NCBI GenBank assembly: GCA_036002485.1
Contig: DASYTI010000001.1
Span: 1-64,000, forward strand
From: Candidatus Methylomirabilota bacterium
Lineage (GTDB): Bacteria > Methylomirabilota > Methylomirabilia > Rokubacteriales > CSP1-6
Direction: 5' to 3'
Length of the DNA: 64,000 nucleotides
Made by a program: the position numbers and the translations under genes. This document shows positions 14,720 through 57,882 of the stretch, one piece after another; within the stretch, counting starts at the first letter, position 1, and every line of letters begins with the position of its first letter. Under the pieces are notes generated by a model. It made no database searches, was not told where the DNA came from, and saw nothing but the letters and a program-made list of their open reading frames with translations.

Positions 14720-14933
14720 CTCAGCCCTCGCCTCATCGCTCATCTACTCAGCCCTCGCCTCAGGGCCTCGCCCTTCAGCTCGAACTGCCACGCCTGCGGG
14801 ATCATCTGAGCCCTCGCCTCGCGGCTCCGCCGCTCAGCTCGAACATCGGGCCGCGCTTCGACTCGAACGATCTATTCAGCCCTCGCCTCATCGTGTTCCT
14901 CGCCATTGGCTCGTCACACGCTTCGGCTCGAAC
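14720..14933. repeat. Dispersed repeat family, cluster of about five units between hisG and hisD
   Basis: Contains a truncated unit at 14720-14740, short units at 14748-14785 (hairpin AGGGC-CTC-GCCCT) and 14807-14844 (GCGGC-TCC-GCCGC), a fragment at about 14846-14868 and a long-form unit at 14876-14933. Each short unit has the form TCAGCCCTCGCCTC, hairpin, TCAGCTCGAAC. The block 14720-14800, reverse complemented, resembles 57110-57180 and 25335-25410. Confidence 0.93.
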
Positions 14934-25261: not shown

Positions 25262-25411
25262 GTTCGAGCTGAGACGGGGCCCGCAGTTCGAGCTGAGGGC
25301 TGAAGGCCCGAGCCGAGAGCTGAGTAAGTTCCGCAGGCGTGGCAGTTCGAGCTGAAGGGCGTAGCCCTGAGGCGAGGGCTGTGTGGGTCAGCGGCGAGGC
25401 GAGTGCTGAAT
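25262..25411. repeat. Dispersed repeat family, reverse-oriented cluster between rex and mfd
   Basis: Contains a fragment (25262-25284), a diverged unit (25286-25324), a clean short unit at 25345-25381 (GAGCTGA, hairpin AGGGC-GTA-GCCCT, GAGGCGAGGGCTG) and a final arm at 25389-25410. The last 75 bp match 57110-57183 at most positions. Confidence 0.92.
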
Positions 25412-27858: not shown

Positions 27859-27966
27859 TCACACCGCTATCGGCTGCACAAGCACACCCAAATGATTGAT
27901 ATCACGGGGGAAAGCGCCTAGCGAAACCTGTCGGTCACGCACAAAAACCCTCGCGGCGGCGGACGA

Positions 27967-27987
27967 TCGAGCTGAGACGCTGCCCGC
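27967..27987. repeat. Degenerate fragment of the dispersed repeat family
   Basis: TCGAGCTGAGACGCTGCCCG (plus one C) matches 57031-57051 with one difference and 49707 onward with two. It lies in the 205-bp gap between the ABC permease end (28048) and atpZ (27842), which otherwise shows nothing recognisable. Confidence 0.7.
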
Positions 27988-28047
27988 AATCCGAGCTGAC
28001 CCGCGGCGGTTGGCCGTCGCAAGGTGAGAACTCGATTGAATAGATTG

Positions 28048-45649: not shown

Positions 45650-45666
45650 GACTCTCGTCTCCTGAC

Positions 45667-45799
45667 TCAGCCCTCGGCTCGCGTCGCCGAGGGGCCGCCT
45701 CTCAGCTCGAAGAGCGGGCAGCGTCTCGGCTCGCACGACCCAGCCCTCGCCTCGCCGCTCTCCTCGCCTACGGCTCGTCGGCAGCGTCTTGGCTCGCAC
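45667..45799. repeat. Dispersed repeat family, cluster upstream of the small membrane protein gene
   Basis: A unit at 45667-45712 (TCAGCCCTCGGCTCGCG to CTCAGCTCGAAG), a fragment at about 45715-45736 (GCGTCTCGGCTCGCAC end) and a long-form unit at 45741-45799 resembling the 62-bp copies at 7728-7855. It separates the minus-strand block from the plus-strand peptidase gene. Confidence 0.9.
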
Positions 45800-45849: not shown

Positions 45850-47313
45850 ATGGTCCGCTCCACCTTCCGGTTCTGGTTCAGCATCATCGTCATTCCGACC
45901 TTCCTCGTCATCGCCGTCCTCAGCTATTTCGCCTGGCGGCAGTCCGTTCCGGGGGTCCGCGCGGTGCTCGAGCCAGTCCCCCGCTGGATCGGCGTCAAGA
46001 CGCCGCTCGCCGTGGATCTCTTCGCGGTGCGCGGCGGAGTCCGCTCCGTCGAGATCCGCCTGAAGCAGGGTCCCGCGCGTGTGGTCCTCGTCAAGCAGGA
46101 GTTCACGGGCGCGCCGTCGAATACCCAGCGCGTGGCCCTCCAGATCACGGGCGGCACCCTGGGCCTGCGCGAGGGGGGCGCCCTGCTCGAGGTGCGCGCC
46201 CGCGACGGCTTCTGGCGGCCCATCCGCGTGGACGACAAGCCCGTCGCCTCCGTACCCGTTACCCTGGATTTCACGCCGCCCTCGCTCGAAGTGGTCTCGG
46301 CGACGCGCTACTGGGCCAAGGGCGGCGGGGGGCTCGTGGTCATCCGCTCCCGAGGCGCCTCTCGCGTGGCGGTGAGCGTCGGCGCCCTGTCCTTCCGCGC
46401 GTATCCGGCGGGACCGGCGGACTCCAATCTCCACGTGGCCATCGTCGGCCTGCCCTGGAACTACGAGGTGGGGACGCCCATCGCCGCCACCGCCCAGGAC
46501 GAGGCCGGGAACACGACCACGCGCAATGTCGCCGTCGAGGTCAAGGGCCGGCGCTTCAAGACGGACGTGATCGACGTGAAGGACGACTTCCTGGAGCGCA
46601 AGCTCCCCGAGCTCCTGCCCGAGCGCGGCGGGGCGATCCCGCGCGATCAGCTCCTCGAGGCCTTTCTCACCGTCAACCGGGACCGTCGCAAGCAGGCCGA
46701 GGAGACCAAGCGCACGCTGGCCTCCCGGACGCAGCCGCGGCCGCTCTGGGACGGCGTCTTCCTGCAGCCCCGCAATACCAAGGTCTTCTCCAACTTCGCG
46801 GAGACGCGCACCTACCGCTACCACGGGCGAGAGGTCGACACTCAGATCCACTTCGGCTATGACCTGGCCGCCGTGCGCCACGGGCCGGTGCCCGCGGCGA
46901 ACGCGGGCGTGGTCGTCTTCGCGGGCCCGCTATCGATCTACGGCAATACGGTCATCGTGGATCACGGGCTGGGCCTGCAGACGCTCTACGCGCATCTCTC
47001 GACCATCGAGGTCAAGGAAGGCGATCAGGTGCGACAGGAGCAGGAGCTGGGGCGCACCGGCGATACGGGATTCGCCATGGGCGACCACCTGCACTTCGAG
47101 GTGCTCATCCAGGGGGTATCGGTGACGCCCGTCGAGTGGTGGGATGCCCGGTGGATCCGCGATCATATCGGCCGGCCGCTGCGTGAGGCGAGCCTGCTCC
47201 TCATCGAGTCGATCATGCCCGAGCTGGCGAAGGAGCAAGCCCCGCCCCCGCCCCGACGCCGTCGCGCGGCCGTGCCGCCGCGGGAGCAACCTCCGAAAGT
47301 CGAGAGCCCCTAG
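45850..47313 (+). CDS. Membrane-anchored M23 (LytM) family metallopeptidase
   Basis: Predicted cell-wall endopeptidase or its activator. The 487-residue protein has an N-terminal signal anchor (about 8-30), a beta-rich central region (35-230), a charged helix (about 250-300) and a C-terminal LytM domain (about 325-455). Metal-site motifs are HFGYDLAA (H-X3-D) and GDHLHFEVLIQG (HxH), with TLYAHLS also present, so all zinc ligands appear intact. The tail is Pro/Arg-rich. It is convergent with the caspase gene; the two stop codons share one CTAG. Confidence 0.87.
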   Translation: MVRSTFRFWFSIIVIPTFLVIAVLSYFAWRQSVPGVRAVLEPVPRWIGVKTPLAVDLFAVRGGVRSVEIRLKQGPARVVLVKQEFTGAPSNTQRVALQITGGTLGLREGGALLEVRARDGFWRPIRVDDKPVASVPVTLDFTPPSLEVVSATRYWAKGGGGLVVIRSRGASRVAVSVGALSFRAYPAGPADSNLHVAIVGLPWNYEVGTPIAATAQDEAGNTTTRNVAVEVKGRRFKTDVIDVKDDFLERKLPELLPERGGAIPRDQLLEAFLTVNRDRRKQAEETKRTLASRTQPRPLWDGVFLQPRNTKVFSNFAETRTYRYHGREVDTQIHFGYDLAAVRHGPVPAANAGVVVFAGPLSIYGNTVIVDHGLGLQTLYAHLSTIEVKEGDQVRQEQELGRTGDTGFAMGDHLHFEVLIQGVSVTPVEWWDARWIRDHIGRPLREASLLLIESIMPELAKEQAPPPPRRRRAAVPPREQPPKVESP

Positions 47314-49844
47314 CGGGTCACCTTCACCAACGGAAGCGCGCCTTCCATCTCGCCCTTCATGACGGGATGCTGGTTGCCCCCGACCGAGCGCGATTTCTGT
47401 GCCACCTGCTGCTCGAGGTACTCGTAGAGCTCCTGGACGGTGACGATGCCGTCCTTGTTGAGGTCGGCCGCGCCTTTGAGCCCCTGCACGAGGTAGTAGG
47501 TGAAGATGCCGTGCCCGAGCTCGGCCAGCTCGATCGACACTTCGGAGGTACGCGAGGCCGTGATGATGGCGCGTCCCTTCGAGCGGGTCAGCCGCTCGAG
47601 GAACTGGTCGTCCAGGTTGGTGGCGCGCGTGCGCTTCGCGCTGAAGGTCCGCCCGCCCGCCGCGCCGCTATAGCAGGCGTCGAGGAAGACCACCATGCGC
47701 TCGGCCTCGACCCGGCTGAAGATGGTCTGCATCTCGTCCATGGGCAGCGCCGTCGAGTACAGATCGTCCGGGTCGGCGTCGGCCGGGATCAGATACTTGG
47801 CGAGCCCGTCGCGCTCGACGCCTCGCTGGTCCACCTCGGGAGCCCCGTGGCCCGCGAAGAAGATCACCACCGTGTCGTCCTTCTTGGCCGAGCGCGCGAG
47901 GAAGGTGCCGAGGGCCCACTTGATGTTGCGAAGAGTCGGCGGCTTCTCGCTCTTGTCGCTCAGCAGGAGCACGTGATCCTTCCGGAAGCCCCCGGGTCCG
48001 ACCAGGACCTGATAGAGCGCCTCGGCGTCTGCCACGCTGTAGCGGAGCGAGGGGATGTCCGTGCTCTGGTAGCGCCCCACCCCGATGACGACGGCCCATC
48101 GGTCGCTTACGGGCTTGACGGGCGGCGATGGCGGGGGGGCAGGCGCGGACGCCACCGGCTTCGGCTTGTCATAGATGACCGTGCGAAGCTCCTGCTTGAT
48201 GGTGCCGTCGGGCTCCGTGGCCGTCAGCACGATGGCATTGGCGCCCTCGCGGAAGGTGACGGGCGCGCTGACCGCGACGGAGCGCGGCGGCGTCTTGTCG
48301 CTCTGCTGGTGCACCTGGGTGCCGTTGAGGGCCACCGTGACCTTGGCCACGCCCTTGCTCGACGTCACCAATGCCGCCACCACGCTCGACTCCTCGCTCA
48401 CGCGGGAGCGATCCTCGGGGTACCGGAACGACACGGTCAGCGGCGCGGCTTTCTCGTAATAGACGGTCCGCACCTCTTGCTGGGTGACGCCGTCGGCGTC
48501 CGTGGCGGTGATGACCACGGTGTTCTGGCCCTCGCGGAGCTTGAGGGGCAGGTTCACGGCCGCCGAGGTCGTGCCGGGCTCCTGGCGCGCGACCTCGACC
48601 CCATTGAGGGAGACGGCCACGCGGCGGACGTTCTTGCCGCCCGACGCGAGCCCGGCGAGCGCCACCGTCTCGTTGTCGAAGCGCGCCTGATCAGCCGGCG
48701 AGGAAAGCGTCACCTGGAGCGGGACGGCCCTCGGAGCGGGCGCGGGCGCGGCGACTTGAGGCGGCGGCGGGGGCTGGGGAAGTGGCGGGGCGCCGATCGG
48801 CGGAACGGGGCCGGGCGGCGCGCCCGGCACGGCCGGCCCTCGAGGCGGCAGATAGAAGAGGCCGCGGGCCTCTTGCCGGGTGGTGCCCTCGCCATCCACG
48901 GCGGTCACGATGACGACGTTCTTGCCCTCACGGAGCTTGATCGGCACATCCAGGGCTATCTCCGGCTTGGGCGCGCGCCGCTCGTTCTTGCTCGCCACCT
49001 CGGCGCCGTTCACGGTGACCACCACCGAGGCCAGGCCTTTGCCCGCGGTGACCTTTCCGCCCAGCGTGATGCTATCGATACCGACGCGGTCCTTCTCGGG
49101 CATGCCCTCGAGGGCGAACTGTATCGGACCGGTGGTGGGATGATCGAGACCGACGAGCTGGAATCGGAGAGTGCCTTGGGGCCCGTCCGCCTTGATGTAC
49201 TGGCGTGCCTCGGGTGAGTACCAGAGATGGTTCTCGAAGCTCCGGCCGCCCTGATTGGTGAAGGTGAGGACGATGTGGAAGGCCTTGAAGGTTCCCGCGA
49301 AGACCTGCACGTCTTCGTAGGCCACCACCCTCCAGCTGATGGAGACGGGGAACGAGCGCCCCGAGGTTCCCGGAGTCTCCCAGAGGCTGTTCTGAAAACC
49401 GGACTTGCCGACCTCGAGCGGCCACTTCAGCTCGATGGGCGGGCTGAAATCGAGGACGGCGTCGCCCCGCTGCGCGCGGGCGATCCCGAGGTCCTTGGTC
49501 AGGTGGATCTCCCAGCGCGGCCTCGTGGAGAAGACGTAGATGTCCTTCTCGATACGGATCAGCTCGTAGAGGCCGTCATTGCGCACCCACTTCTCGCCGA
49601 GCGTATACGTCGGCCGCTCGGCCCGCGGCTTGGCCTGCGCGTGGGCGAGCGCGGGCGAGAGCACGAGGGCCAGCACGATCGCCGAGGCGAAGAGGGCAAG
49701 AGACGTTCGAGCTGAGACGCGGCCCGCAGTTCGAGGCGAGGGGCGGCGCCTCGCCGACGCGAGCCGAGGGCGGAGTTGATCCCGCAGGAGAGGAGCGCGG
49801 CGAGGCGCGAGCTGAGACAATCGCTTCAGGCCTGAACGAACCAT
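47310..49844 (-). CDS. Secreted caspase-like (C14/orthocaspase) protein with Ig-like repeats and an EF-hand
   Basis: An 844-residue protein. After an Ala/Leu-rich signal helix (about 49-68, cleavage near AHAQA) comes a beta domain (75-235), then three Ig-like repeats (about 240-520), each ending LREGxNxVVxTAxDxxG. A C14 domain follows (about 555-780) with His666 in VIFFAGHGAP and Cys724 in FLDACYSG. A C-terminal EF-hand loop DLNKDGIVTVQEL starts at 794 with all ligand positions. Catalysis and Ca2+ activation are inferred. Residues about 12-47 come from a dispersed repeat, so the start is uncertain. Confidence 0.85.
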   Translation of the reverse strand: MVRSGLKRLSQLAPRRAPLLRDQLRPRLASARRRPSPRTAGRVSARTSLALFASAIVLALVLSPALAHAQAKPRAERPTYTLGEKWVRNDGLYELIRIEKDIYVFSTRPRWEIHLTKDLGIARAQRGDAVLDFSPPIELKWPLEVGKSGFQNSLWETPGTSGRSFPVSISWRVVAYEDVQVFAGTFKAFHIVLTFTNQGGRSFENHLWYSPEARQYIKADGPQGTLRFQLVGLDHPTTGPIQFALEGMPEKDRVGIDSITLGGKVTAGKGLASVVVTVNGAEVASKNERRAPKPEIALDVPIKLREGKNVVIVTAVDGEGTTRQEARGLFYLPPRGPAVPGAPPGPVPPIGAPPLPQPPPPPQVAAPAPAPRAVPLQVTLSSPADQARFDNETVALAGLASGGKNVRRVAVSLNGVEVARQEPGTTSAAVNLPLKLREGQNTVVITATDADGVTQQEVRTVYYEKAAPLTVSFRYPEDRSRVSEESSVVAALVTSSKGVAKVTVALNGTQVHQQSDKTPPRSVAVSAPVTFREGANAIVLTATEPDGTIKQELRTVIYDKPKPVASAPAPPPSPPVKPVSDRWAVVIGVGRYQSTDIPSLRYSVADAEALYQVLVGPGGFRKDHVLLLSDKSEKPPTLRNIKWALGTFLARSAKKDDTVVIFFAGHGAPEVDQRGVERDGLAKYLIPADADPDDLYSTALPMDEMQTIFSRVEAERMVVFLDACYSGAAGGRTFSAKRTRATNLDDQFLERLTRSKGRAIITASRTSEVSIELAELGHGIFTYYLVQGLKGAADLNKDGIVTVQELYEYLEQQVAQKSRSVGGNQHPVMKGEMEGALPLVKVTR
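49705..49817. repeat. Dispersed repeat family, copy inside the caspase reading frame
   Basis: Starts GTTCGAGCTGAGACGCGGCC and includes a 43-bp stretch (49729-49771) identical to 57053-57095; with the next 17 bp, 59 of 60 positions agree. It is in frame with the caspase gene on the minus strand and adds a Pro/Arg-rich segment before the signal helix. Confidence 0.93.
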
Positions 49845-49850
49845 GTGATG

Positions 49851-49880
49851 ACCCTATCCGCCTGGGCGGGGCCGTGTCAA
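49851..49880 (-). promoter_or_regulatory. Candidate sigma70-type promoter of the caspase gene
   Basis: TTGACA (49880-49875), an 18-bp spacer and TAGGGT (49856-49851). The expected start falls at or within a few bases of the ATG at 49844, so the message would be nearly leaderless, or translation starts further in. Confidence 0.5.
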
Positions 49881-49943
49881 ACTTGGCGGGAGAGGCCTGC
49901 TTCCTCGGTTCGCGAGCGGGAACTCGCCTGGAAGCTCGGGTAC

Positions 49944-50906
49944 TTACCGCCGCGCCGCCGAGAGGTCGCGGGATTCCACGTACTCCCGCTGGGCGAGCTC
50001 GGTCAGCCCTATCGTCTCGTAGACCTGTCCGAGCAGCAGATGCAGGGTCGGCTCGTCGGGGTCTTTGGCCACCGCGGCCAGGAGCTCGCGCCGGGCCTCG
50101 GCATAGAGCCCCTCGCGGAGGAGATAGCCGGCCCGCATGATGGCCACGCTGGAGGCGGGATAGCCGGGCATCGAGGCAGGGACGAGGATGCCGAGCGATT
50201 CCTGCACCCGCGCGGCGTCTCCGGCGGCCAGGATCTCGAACTCGGTCTGCTGAACCGGCTGACCCGCCGTCTCGAGCTGCCAGAGATAGCGCACGCCGGG
50301 CTGGAGCGCGGGCGCGGAGGCAGGATACGCCACGGGCCGCCGCGGAAGATCCGCCTGCTCCCAGAGGGGACCCTTGGCCGAGAGCACGCGCACGCGGTAG
50401 CGCAAGGTGTCCGAGCCGTTCCACTCGAATGCCACGGTGCCGGGCAGGATCTTCGTGTCGCGGGGGGCGAGCTGGAGCACGCGCGGCGGGCGCACGTTGC
50501 GCACCGAGAGCGGGAGATAGGCCAGGTCCTTCTGCTTGCCGGAGAGAAAGTCCGTGACCCCGCCCACGAGACCACGCAGCTTGTCGCCGGAGGCGGCCGC
50601 GGCGGGCGGCTGCACGGTGAAGGGCGAGTTGGCCGCGGAGACCGATTGCGCTCCCCGCCCGCCCGTGAAGACGACGGCCGCGCGCGCCGAGCCGCCGGCG
50701 CGGATCTGGTCGCCCGCGCGGAGCGCCTGCAGAGGCTGGGCCGCGCCCCACGCGGACTCCCCCGCCCGCTTCACCTCGATCTGGCCGCCCTCCGCGCGGA
50801 TCTCGGTGACCACGGCCACGGGATCCGCGGCCATCGCCACTGACGGGAGGATCAGCGTCCATTCGAGCAGACCCGCCCCAAGCAGTACCGCCAGAGTCTT
50901 GGCCAC
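49944..50906 (-). CDS. FecR-domain protein with C-terminal TPR-like helices, exported
   Basis: A 320-residue protein with a signal peptide (VAKTLAVLLGAGLLEWTLI, cleavage near AMAADP). The FecR-like domain (about 35-105) shows VKRAGESAWGAAQPLQALRAGDQIRAG in two stretches and SARAAVVFTGG. Then a fibronectin-like region (125-215, FEWNGSDTLRYRVRV) and a helical TPR-like end (about 250-310, ARRELLAAVAKDPDEPTLHL). Start GTG 50906, 2 nt after the cyclase stop, so the pair is translationally linked. CHASE2 cyclases are often paired with FecR proteins; role as periplasmic sensor partner is inference. Confidence 0.78.
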   Translation of the reverse strand: MAKTLAVLLGAGLLEWTLILPSVAMAADPVAVVTEIRAEGGQIEVKRAGESAWGAAQPLQALRAGDQIRAGGSARAAVVFTGGRGAQSVSAANSPFTVQPPAAAASGDKLRGLVGGVTDFLSGKQKDLAYLPLSVRNVRPPRVLQLAPRDTKILPGTVAFEWNGSDTLRYRVRVLSAKGPLWEQADLPRRPVAYPASAPALQPGVRYLWQLETAGQPVQQTEFEILAAGDAARVQESLGILVPASMPGYPASSVAIMRAGYLLREGLYAEARRELLAAVAKDPDEPTLHLLLGQVYETIGLTELAQREYVESRDLSAARR

Positions 50907-50908
50907 GC

Positions 50909-52642
50909 TCAGCGCTCTCTTTCGTCGGGCTCCGGCGGCGCGACCTCGTAGATCCGCACGGGCTCCTGCCGTCCCTTGACCTGCACCAGTCCGCGGTCGG
51001 TCATCCCCACGTCCAGGGCCGCATTTCGATAGGCCGACTCGGTCACCAGCATGATGGTGCCGAGCTCCTTGTTCAAGCCCTCGACGCGGGAAGCCAGATT
51101 GACCGTGTCTCCCACCACAGCGTACTTGACCTTGCCCTCCCGGCCGACGTTTCCCGCGAACACCTCGCCGGTGTGCACGCCCAGCCCCATACGCAGCGGC
51201 GGCAGCCCCTCGGACTCCCAGCGCCGGTTGAGGCCGGCGAGCGCCCGCTGCATGGCCAGCGCGCTCTGCACCGCGTGGCGCGCGTGATCCGGATCGTCGA
51301 GGGGAGCGCCGAACACGGCCATGATCGCGTCCCCGATGAAATCGTTCACCATGCCCCGATGGACGAAGATGGCCGCCGTCATGGCGTCGAAGTACTCGGT
51401 CAGCCGCGCGGCCATCTGTTCGGGCGCCATGCGCTCGGAGAGCGTGGTGAAGCCGCGCAGGTCCGAAAAGAGAATGGAGACCTCGCGTCGCTCGCCGGCC
51501 AGCTCCTCGGGGCGGCGCTCCACGCGCGCGGCCACCTCGGGACTGACATAGCGGCCGAGAGCCTCGCGGAGCCGCCGCCTCGCCAGGACGTCGGCGCCCA
51601 GCCCGAGAAGGGCCACGGCGAGGACGGGGAGAAGAAAATCCACGAGGTAGCCGCGTTTGAGAGCGGCCAGGCTCGCGGGAATGCCCAGGATGGCCGCGGC
51701 CGCGAGACAGACCACGGTGCCCCAGAGCGGCCGCAGCGCGGTCATGACGAGACCGGCGAGGAGCACCGCCCCGAGCTGGACTCCGAGCGCCGCGATCCAT
51801 CCCGCCGGCCGGACGAAGCTCTGGGTCAGCAGCATCTGGGCGATATTCGCCTGGATCTCCACGCCCGACATCCGGCCAAAGGGCGTCATGTGGAAATCGC
51901 GGCCGTCCTGGAAGGTACCCCCCACGAGCACGATGCGTCCGCGCAGGGGATTGTCGCCGGCGATGTCGGCCCCCGCGTCGCCGATGGCGGCCACCGCGTC
52001 GGACGGAATGGTCAGGAAGCTTCCGGGGGGACCGATGAAGTTGATGGGGAGAACCGTCCCCGGCTCCGAGGTCTGGGACTGGCTGACCGCGGCCCCGAAG
52101 GCGACATCGCGGCCGACTCTCACCACCACGCGCCGGACGATGGCGTCCCCGTCCACCGGGACCTCCGGGGCGCTCAGCACGACCAGCTTGGCGAGCGCGG
52201 GATCGGCGAGCGGACCGCGATCGGGCAGGGCCGCGCTCGCCACCACGAGCCGGCGCGCTCCGCGCTCCGCGAACTCCGCCATGGCCTGGGCGAGGGCGGC
52301 GTCCTCCGGCGCGGGTCCGGCGGTGCGAAACGAGATGTCGAAGCCCACGGTGACGCCCCCCGCGCGCTGGATCCCCCGCAGCACCCGCGCCAGGTAATCG
52401 CGCGGAATGGGCTGGCGCCGACCGAGAGCATCGAAGGCGCCATCGTCGACGGCCACGATGACGATGGTCCCGGGCTGGCGCGGGCTCTGCAGATACATCA
52501 AGAGGTCGAGCGCTCGGACCTGGAGCGACTCGAAATAGCCCATGGCCGAGCCCGCCGTCACCGCGCAGGCGGCGATCGCGCCCACCACCCAGAGCTGGCG
52601 GAGGCGGGCCCGCCTCGCGCGCCACCATCCCAAAACACTCAT
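50909..52642 (-). CDS. Class III adenylate/guanylate cyclase with CHASE2 sensor domain
   Basis: Makes cyclic nucleotide in response to an extracytoplasmic signal. In 577 residues: one N-terminal helix (about 18-36), a periplasmic CHASE2 domain (about 40-290, with PGTIVIVAVDDGAFDALGRR and GRIVLVGGTFQDGRDFHMTP), three helices (about 300-375), then the cyclase domain (about 395-560). The catalytic core shows metal Asp in SILFSDLRGFTTLSERM and NDFIGDAIMAVFGAP, and VKYAVVGDTVNLASRVEGL. The family purine-selecting residues suggest cAMP, but this is not tested. Confidence 0.92.
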   Translation of the reverse strand: MSVLGWWRARRARLRQLWVVGAIAACAVTAGSAMGYFESLQVRALDLLMYLQSPRQPGTIVIVAVDDGAFDALGRRQPIPRDYLARVLRGIQRAGGVTVGFDISFRTAGPAPEDAALAQAMAEFAERGARRLVVASAALPDRGPLADPALAKLVVLSAPEVPVDGDAIVRRVVVRVGRDVAFGAAVSQSQTSEPGTVLPINFIGPPGSFLTIPSDAVAAIGDAGADIAGDNPLRGRIVLVGGTFQDGRDFHMTPFGRMSGVEIQANIAQMLLTQSFVRPAGWIAALGVQLGAVLLAGLVMTALRPLWGTVVCLAAAAILGIPASLAALKRGYLVDFLLPVLAVALLGLGADVLARRRLREALGRYVSPEVAARVERRPEELAGERREVSILFSDLRGFTTLSERMAPEQMAARLTEYFDAMTAAIFVHRGMVNDFIGDAIMAVFGAPLDDPDHARHAVQSALAMQRALAGLNRRWESEGLPPLRMGLGVHTGEVFAGNVGREGKVKYAVVGDTVNLASRVEGLNKELGTIMLVTESAYRNAALDVGMTDRGLVQVKGRQEPVRIYEVAPPEPDERER

Positions 52643-57019: not shown

Positions 57020-57882
57020 GGCCGGGAAGTTCGAGCCGAGACGCTGCCCGCTGTTCGAGGCGAGGGGCGGCGCCTCGCCGACGCGAGCCGAGGGCTGAGT
57101 TGATCCCGCAGGCGTGGCAGTTCGAGCTGAAGGGCGAAGCCCTGAGGCGAGGGCTGAGTAGATGAGCGGCGAGGCGAGTGCTGGGTCGTGGTCCTGACGG
57201 CGCAGAGACGCAAGGCCCAGGCGTGGCGATGCACGCGCACGTCGGCGAGATCGGCGCGCCGGGCGAGGGACTCGACCTCGCCGAGGGTATAGGCGCGCCG
57301 GACGGACATGGGCCCGTCGTGGCGGGACATGCGGTTCCTGGCCAGGAGCCGCGTGGTCAGCCAGACCACGGCATGGGCCAGGCGGCTCCGGAAGAGATCA
57401 TTGGCCACGAGACCCCGCCGGGCGGCGCGATCCATCTCGGCGAGGGAGACCGCGGCCTCGGCGGGCGGCAGGTGATGGAGCACGAGGGCGGAGATGGCCA
57501 CGTCCACCGAGCACGGCCGCACGGGGAGGGCGAGGGCGTCGCCGCGGACCAGCGTGACCTCGGGATAGCCGGCCATCCGAAGGGCGGCCGCGCGGAGCGT
57601 CTCGCCATCGCGATCCAGCGCGAAGATCCGGATGGAGCGACCCGCGCGGCGCGCCCACCGCACGAGCGCGCGCGGGATATCGCCGCCCCCGGTGCCCACG
57701 TCGAGGACGGTCACGCGGCGATCACGCGGCAGGTCCGCGACGAGGCGTTTCACGTGACGCATGGTCAGCCGGGCTCCGCCGAAGAAGGCATTGAAGCGCG
57801 CGATGTCGTCCAGGTTCTGGGAGAGGTCGGCGAAGGGCGCAGGCCGGTCGAGCATCTCGACGGCGTCGTGCGCGCGCTCCAT
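57016..57882 (-). CDS. SAM-dependent methyltransferase with a repeat-encoded C-terminal tail
   Basis: A 288-residue protein from the Met at 57882 (MERAHDAVEM). The class I fold shows SAM loop VLDVGTGGGDIPRALVRW, FALDRDGETLRAAA and VDVAISALVLHHLPP. Probably O- or C-methylates the product of the adjoining type III PKS. Homology appears to end near residue 234 (CAVRTTTQ); the last 54 residues (HSPRRSSTQPS onward) are translated from the dispersed repeat 57030-57183. Upstream Met at 57924 would overlap the PKS gene by 32 nt and is less likely. Confidence 0.83.
   Translation of the reverse strand: MERAHDAVEMLDRPAPFADLSQNLDDIARFNAFFGGARLTMRHVKRLVADLPRDRRVTVLDVGTGGGDIPRALVRWARRAGRSIRIFALDRDGETLRAAALRMAGYPEVTLVRGDALALPVRPCSVDVAISALVLHHLPPAEAAVSLAEMDRAARRGLVANDLFRSRLAHAVVWLTTRLLARNRMSRHDGPMSVRRAYTLGEVESLARRADLADVRVHRHAWALRLCAVRTTTQHSPRRSSTQPSPQGFALQLELPRLRDQLSPRLASARRRPSPRTAGSVSARTSRP
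57030..57183. repeat. Dispersed repeat family, long composite copy inside the methyltransferase 3' end
   Basis: From GTTCGAGCCGAGACGCTGCC through a 43-bp block shared exactly with 49729-49771 to a short unit at 57120-57157 (hairpin AGGGC-GAA-GCCCT) and a terminal arm GAGCGGCGAGGCGAGTGCTG. It contains no stop in the methyltransferase frame over its whole length. Confidence 0.94.

Follow-up and report, generated by a model that had tools for sequence, protein, structure and literature searches.

No role is known for most caspase homologues of bacteria, and the literature treats them largely as enzymes of cell death. A caspase gene with a predicted export signal beside a CHASE2 receptor cyclase raises the question of whether such genes form a functional set and what an exported protease might do next to an envelope sensor. 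We addressed this question in a 64,000-nucleotide stretch of Candidatus Methylomirabilota DNA (assembly GCA_036002485.1, contig DASYTI010000001.1, positions 1 to 64,000; hereafter the window) from a Rokubacteria-type MAG that carries two CHASE2 genes and several caspase relatives. The original prediction, made from the letters alone, had described a membrane cyclase with a CHASE2 sensor, an exported FecR protein and an exported caspase with an EF-hand loop as an envelope stress or lysis pathway in which calcium gates the protease and the cyclase reports the same signal inside. The set of three minus-strand genes (window 47310-52642) was found with the coordinates and order proposed, and the locus has the following features:

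50909-52642, minus strand: CHASE2-domain membrane class III nucleotide cyclase, 577 aa
49944-50906, minus strand: MtxA-like partner, predicted to be exported, 320 aa, GTG start at 50906
47310-49844, minus strand: caspase (C14), predicted to be exported, 844 aa
47352-48101, minus strand: Peptidase_C14 domain of the caspase, with catalytic His666 (47847-47849) and Cys724 (47673-47675)
47430-47465, minus strand: EF-hand-type loop DLNKDGIVTVQE in the caspase, residues 794-805, between the last two caspase-fold helices
49851-49880, minus strand: promoter-like site TTGACA-N18-TAGGGT, immediately 5′ of the caspase ATG
49702-49788, minus strand: dispersed-repeat copy, in frame in the N-region of the caspase signal peptide
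45850-47313, plus strand: LytM gene (Peptidase_M23), convergent neighbour, judged to lie outside the set

The GTG of the partner gene lies 2 nt past the stop codon of the cyclase gene, as had been predicted, and a spacer of 99 nt separates the partner gene from the caspase gene. The three genes are collinear, and because this spacer contains the promoter-like site it is not clear that they are transcribed as a single RNA. The first hexamer and the spacing of TTGACA-N18-TAGGGT are kept in four members of the genus (the window and three relatives) while the spacer letters differ, and the ATG follows at an identical 6-nt distance in two of the three relatives and further downstream in the third (L063). 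A site of this type occurs once in the window against 0.02 expected, a comparison that is not independent proof since the search pattern was derived from the site itself. A sigma-70 promoter scan gave no promoter, as the poor second hexamer hid the site, which was recognised from a comparison of four relatives. The arrangement suggests a transcript for the caspase alone, one that would perhaps be leaderless. The LytM gene is convergent and adjoining, its 3′ end overlapping that of the caspase gene by 4 nt, and to this extent the original prediction was accurate; its membership in the set did not stand, since the gene stays with its own neighbours in the genus and in G009, where it flanks the cyclase/partner pair, and is otherwise missing from the clusters of other genera. 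LytM beside the caspase is thus local synteny. The repeat inside the caspase gene belongs to a GC-rich dispersed family of about 40-100 bp, with window copies at 49702-49788, 57026-57112, 45665-45760, 14793-14884, 25262-25299 and 27962-28023 and more matches elsewhere in the genome; the copy in the caspase is missing from the 90%-identical orthologue in G004.

In silico analysis of the first gene agreed with a CHASE2 class III cyclase, with Pfam matches to CHASE2 (E=5.9e-35) and Guanylate_cyc (E=1.2e-26). Hydropathy, the only basis for the topology given here, indicated one hydrophobic segment, the CHASE2 ectodomain, a hydrophobic stretch long enough for three segments and then the cyclase domain. 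The metal-binding Asp motifs (FSDLRGF, 51449-51469, and FIGDAIM) and the transition-state motif NLASR are intact. The purine-specifying Lys (DKxIGD) that marks an adenylate cyclase is replaced by Asp in the window cyclase (NDFIGD, 51320-51346), so its product could be either cAMP or cGMP. Within this bacterial family, every cyclase that has an MtxA-like partner shows the replacement; the purine Lys is kept in the other CHASE2 cyclase of the genome, in the Ignavibacteria cyclases and in a Gemmatimonadota cyclase (L123). In the window cyclase and the orthologues with the replacement (L057, L058, L063, L068, L168-L177 and L180) we also observed that a Lys precedes the Tyr of the KY-VGD motif, which looks like a swap of charges.

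The second gene encodes a protein with a signal-peptide-like start and TPR, and these parts of the original prediction held together with the start 2 nt after the cyclase gene. The FecR label did not: Pfam FecR (PF04773) gave no match in the window partner or in six orthologues (seven proteins in total), even at E=10, so that by Pfam the partner is not a FecR, and when run against the whole genome the FecR model matched three other places, the partner gene not being among them. The N-terminal domain may still have a FecR-like fold. An AlphaFold2 model of the partner (pLDDT 81) consists of a signal helix, a small N-terminal beta domain, an Ig-like domain and TPR helices, and it matched the fold of the C-terminal domain of MtxA (4z29) with E=2.6e-8 and a TM-score of 0.68 on the target. 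A sequence comparison with the 4z29 chain gave nothing at E≤1, and a plasmid search with the partner gave no match. The 4z29-type order of Ig-like domain and then TPR, the signal peptide and the gene beside a CHASE2 cyclase are thus supported by fold and context, not by sequence, and because the structure match and the gene context agree we regard the partner as an MtxA-like protein. In magnetotactic bacteria a CHASE2 cyclase gene comes after mtxA, whose deletion gave no visible phenotype under standard conditions (PMC4439547).

The third gene encodes a protein with a long N-region and signal peptide, an N-terminal beta domain, Ig-like domains and a catalytic domain, with Pfam matches to Peptidase_C14 (E=2.1e-18) and Big_7. 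Its AlphaFold2 model (mean pLDDT 83.6) matched metacaspases, MALT1 and GSU0716 in the PDB, and the closest named records by protein sequence are Rokubacteria MAGs. The caspase fold with both catalytic residues, His666 and Cys724, is therefore present, and the intact His/Cys pair, the Ig-like domains and the EF-type loop (residues 794-805) were all as originally described. Virtually all relatives retain an Asp two residues before the Cys and the Asp of an ADAEA motif; we take these two residues to match the Arg/Lys pocket of metacaspases, and on this sequence basis the enzyme would cleave after Arg or Lys. The 12-residue loop has the form DxDxDGxxxxxE, and positions 1, 5, 6 and 12 are invariant among 17 diverse relatives. 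The structure prediction that had been proposed as a check yielded a proper helix-loop-helix, with a helix at 710-722, the loop at 724-735 and a helix at 733-750 in a block of pLDDT 89-96 (model residue 1 being protein residue 71). Pfam EF-hand models were marginal (E 0.055 for the window caspase and 0.0021 at best among relatives). The combination of EF-hand and caspase had been considered uncommon, a view contradicted by the relaxed EF pattern, which the loop satisfied in 70 of 87 C14 relatives, a set biased towards relatives of the query caspase; the loop is also kept in 6/7 relatives that lack the His/Cys catalytic pair. In an alignment to yeast metacaspase, the stretch EEDGMDD, which we presume to be part of the eukaryotic Ca2+ site, corresponds to ERDGLAK in the window caspase. 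Most likely the EF-type loop is a Ca2+-binding element of the fold itself. That such a helix-loop-helix is common in the p10 part of C14 proteins points to a calcium site other than the one that has been studied in metacaspases of eukaryotes; EF-hand motifs have been noted in 7 archaeal proteins (PMC3501461, PMC6426788).

We surveyed the gene neighbourhood, as the original prediction had recommended, within the class and beyond it. The within-class survey covered 36 genomes with 71 CHASE2 matches and 18 MtxA-like genes. A C14 gene was located within 5 kb of CHASE2 in 11 of the 71 matches against 0.48 expected, as computed from C14 counts and genome sizes. The MtxA-like gene directly followed a CHASE2 cyclase gene on the same strand in 16 of 18 cases (of the other two, one was near a contig edge and one unlinked), and a C14 gene or remnant was within 5 kb of it in 10/18; the remaining 8/18 had no C14 gene at this distance, several of them lying at contig ends. 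The order CHASE2, partner, caspase is found in the window's genus (L057, L063), and the order of three tandem caspases, CHASE2 and MtxA-like partner in two other genera (G020 and G021). Two members of the genus have losses, both read on draft contigs where assembly errors are possible: in G001 one deletion (L055, 8685-10063) joins the CHASE2 start to the caspase C-terminus, the whole set between LytM and a TRAP transporter gene being gone, and in G003 much of the caspase has been removed by an in-frame deletion that leaves the CHASE2/MtxA-like pair intact. G013, G018 and G009 have the pair with no caspase close by. As a separate observation, large caspase genes stand in tandem, two to three at a time, in related genera (L058, L068, L069 and L073), with CHASE2 and MtxA-like genes adjoining in L058 and L068.

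For other phyla, 80 loci were pulled with a caspase alignment using search patterns that contained neither the EF loop nor CHASE2 sequence, and 40 of these loci were outside Rokubacteria. A CHASE2 gene was present on the examined stretch in 12 of the 40 and within 1 kb of the caspase in 11, where whole-genome CHASE2 counts predict 0.19 linkages within 3 kb, with the reservation that seven of the linked loci come from Ignavibacteria-type relatives and are not independent. Linkage was also seen in Desulfobacterota, Troglogloeales and Gemmatimonadota and, among the remaining loci, in a Bacteroidota record (L137). In Ignavibacteria and Desulfobacterota, the caspase, an exported DUF4384 protein and a CHASE2 cyclase form a compact trio (L099, L096, L097, L110); in Troglogloeales, a CHASE2 protein with a sigma-54 activator domain is followed by the caspase; and in Gemmatimonadota (L123) the genes for a caspase-DUF4384 fusion, a CHASE2 cyclase and an MtxA-like protein directly adjoin one another. 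The caspase of L099 has WD40-type repeats at its N-terminus. When 126 C14 domains were placed on a quick tree, the linked caspases fell into several separate groups and the linked state changed at least 12 times, whether by gain or by loss; many caspase relatives had no CHASE2 neighbour. The pairing of an exported caspase with a CHASE2 receptor is well beyond chance, and since the genes recur together far above chance in several phyla, a functional set is likely. Recurrence in such distant phyla suggests an undescribed envelope signalling partnership.

Our tentative reading is that a CHASE2-cyclase/MtxA-like envelope sensor is joined by an optional exported caspase arm, with a putative Ca2+-binding loop, that acts on the input side by cutting envelope proteins. 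The CHASE2 receptor cyclase in the inner membrane and the exported Ig/TPR protein would form the core sensor, the MtxA-like protein probably binding a signal or presenting it to the CHASE2 ectodomain. The caspase would be a protease arm in the same compartment as the sensor, most likely cutting envelope proteins after Arg/Lys, with the MtxA-like partner and the ectodomain of the receptor as possible substrates, and the cyclase would report the change inside as a cyclic nucleotide. The EF-type loop may keep the caspase inactive in the low-Ca2+ cytoplasm and allow activity after export. The linkage itself is silent on the direction of signalling, no cleavage site could be shown on partner or receptor, and beyond the shared compartment we infer the mechanism.

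The main competitor, possible if somewhat doubtful, makes the caspase peripheral: an exported protease with its own transcription, sitting near CHASE2 through a shared envelope or lifestyle gene set and having no direct biochemical link to it. The caspase can indeed be separated from the pair, having its own conserved promoter-like site and having been lost alone in G003; the pairs that occur without a nearby caspase and the majority of caspase copies, which have no CHASE2 gene nearby, fit this account as well. Mere cohabitation, however, sits poorly with an enrichment of 11 over 0.48 in the class and 11 over 0.19 outside it at gaps mostly below 1 kb, and with a linkage that spans different output domains (cyclase and sigma-54 activator) and different partners. 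The calcium gate of the original prediction, by which a periplasmic Ca2+ rise under envelope stress turns the protease on, can draw on a canonical EF-type loop with a helix on each side, yet the loop is general in this C14 clade and periplasmic Ca2+ is usually already high. Because the periplasm is usually Ca2+-rich relative to the cytoplasm and catalytically dead relatives keep the loop, a constitutive structural site, or a switch that turns on after export, explains the loop no worse than a stress gate does, and we consider such gating very unlikely; neither it nor a lysis role is supported.

The promoter-like site also bears on a version in which the caspase is the output, an envelope signal raising a cyclic nucleotide, a CRP-type regulator turning on the caspase, and the caspase remodelling the envelope or killing. 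Tandem caspase arrays beside one receptor would suit amplified effectors, and action at the cell surface has been proposed for exported caspases (PMC3501461). Inspection by eye of the region near the site, however, revealed no CRP-like palindrome, the site looking like a plain sigma-70-type promoter, and nothing shows toxicity, so that we hold this version to be unlikely. A cell-suicide or anti-phage system akin to EACC1-type caspase systems or Pycsar is the least probable account. The NCBIfam model for EACC1-associated caspases (NF047832) does match at 117.9 bits, and PADLOC models for caspase and PycC recognise the domains; the EACC1 model has a curated cut-off of 140, however, which this score does not reach, and the PycC match reflects the shared cyclase domain only, so that membership in either system was rejected. 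Moreover, no Pycsar-type cyclic-nucleotide-gated effector was recognised among the neighbours, the cyclase is a membrane CHASE2 protein and not a soluble PycC, and a caspase with a signal-peptide-like start would miss cytoplasmic targets. An extension of the sensor with an exported caspase arm, bolder and rather improbable as a whole, would see a widespread and so far undescribed class of receptor-protease modules in which exported caspases and CHASE2 receptors with cyclase or sigma-54 activator output are connected via interchangeable exported partners (MtxA-like, DUF4384), serve periplasmic signalling and not cell death, and use the p10 EF-hand as an export-dependent switch.

Earlier work already outlines the core CHASE2/MtxA-like pair (PMC4439547, PMC9239204); the link to a caspase appears undescribed. 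The mtxA-CHASE2 pair (PMC4439547; 4z29) likewise has an exported Ig-like and TPR protein encoded beside a CHASE2 cyclase, but there mtxA precedes the cyclase gene, whereas the partner follows it here, and no caspase was reported. In the Campylobacterota cluster (PMC9239204) a CHASE2 adenylate cyclase is grouped with an exported partner and a TPR protein; that cluster has a phosphodiesterase and no caspase, and its partner is a FecR-domain outer-membrane protein, whereas ours fails the Pfam FecR model. Sinorhizobium CyaD1/Clr (PMC5498481) also involves a CHASE2 cyclase, and the FecR-domain protein SMc02177 was among the sequences studied with Clr targets, but there is no caspase and SMc02177 was not shown there as a cyclase neighbour. 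Our literature search found no paper joining CHASE2, FecR and caspase, and one CHASE2-caspase fusion is known, from Trichodesmium (PMC3501461), in which the caspase is predicted to be cytoplasmic; here it is predicted to be exported and lies beside CHASE2, not fused to it. The repeated pairing gives bacterial caspases a concrete, testable partner and compartment, and it provides a wider context for the orphan MtxA structure.

The caspase itself shares the C14 fold, the His/Cys pair and Ig-like extra domains with bacterial orthocaspases and metacaspases (PMC3501461, PMC6426788). Pseudo-orthocaspases of the YS type have been tied to photosynthetic bacteria (PMC6426788). Three of the Rokubacteria caspases are of this type (L074 7162-9381, L082 8355-10550 and L081 7186-9084): they have Tyr or Leu in place of the His and Ser in place of the Cys, with the EF loop kept.
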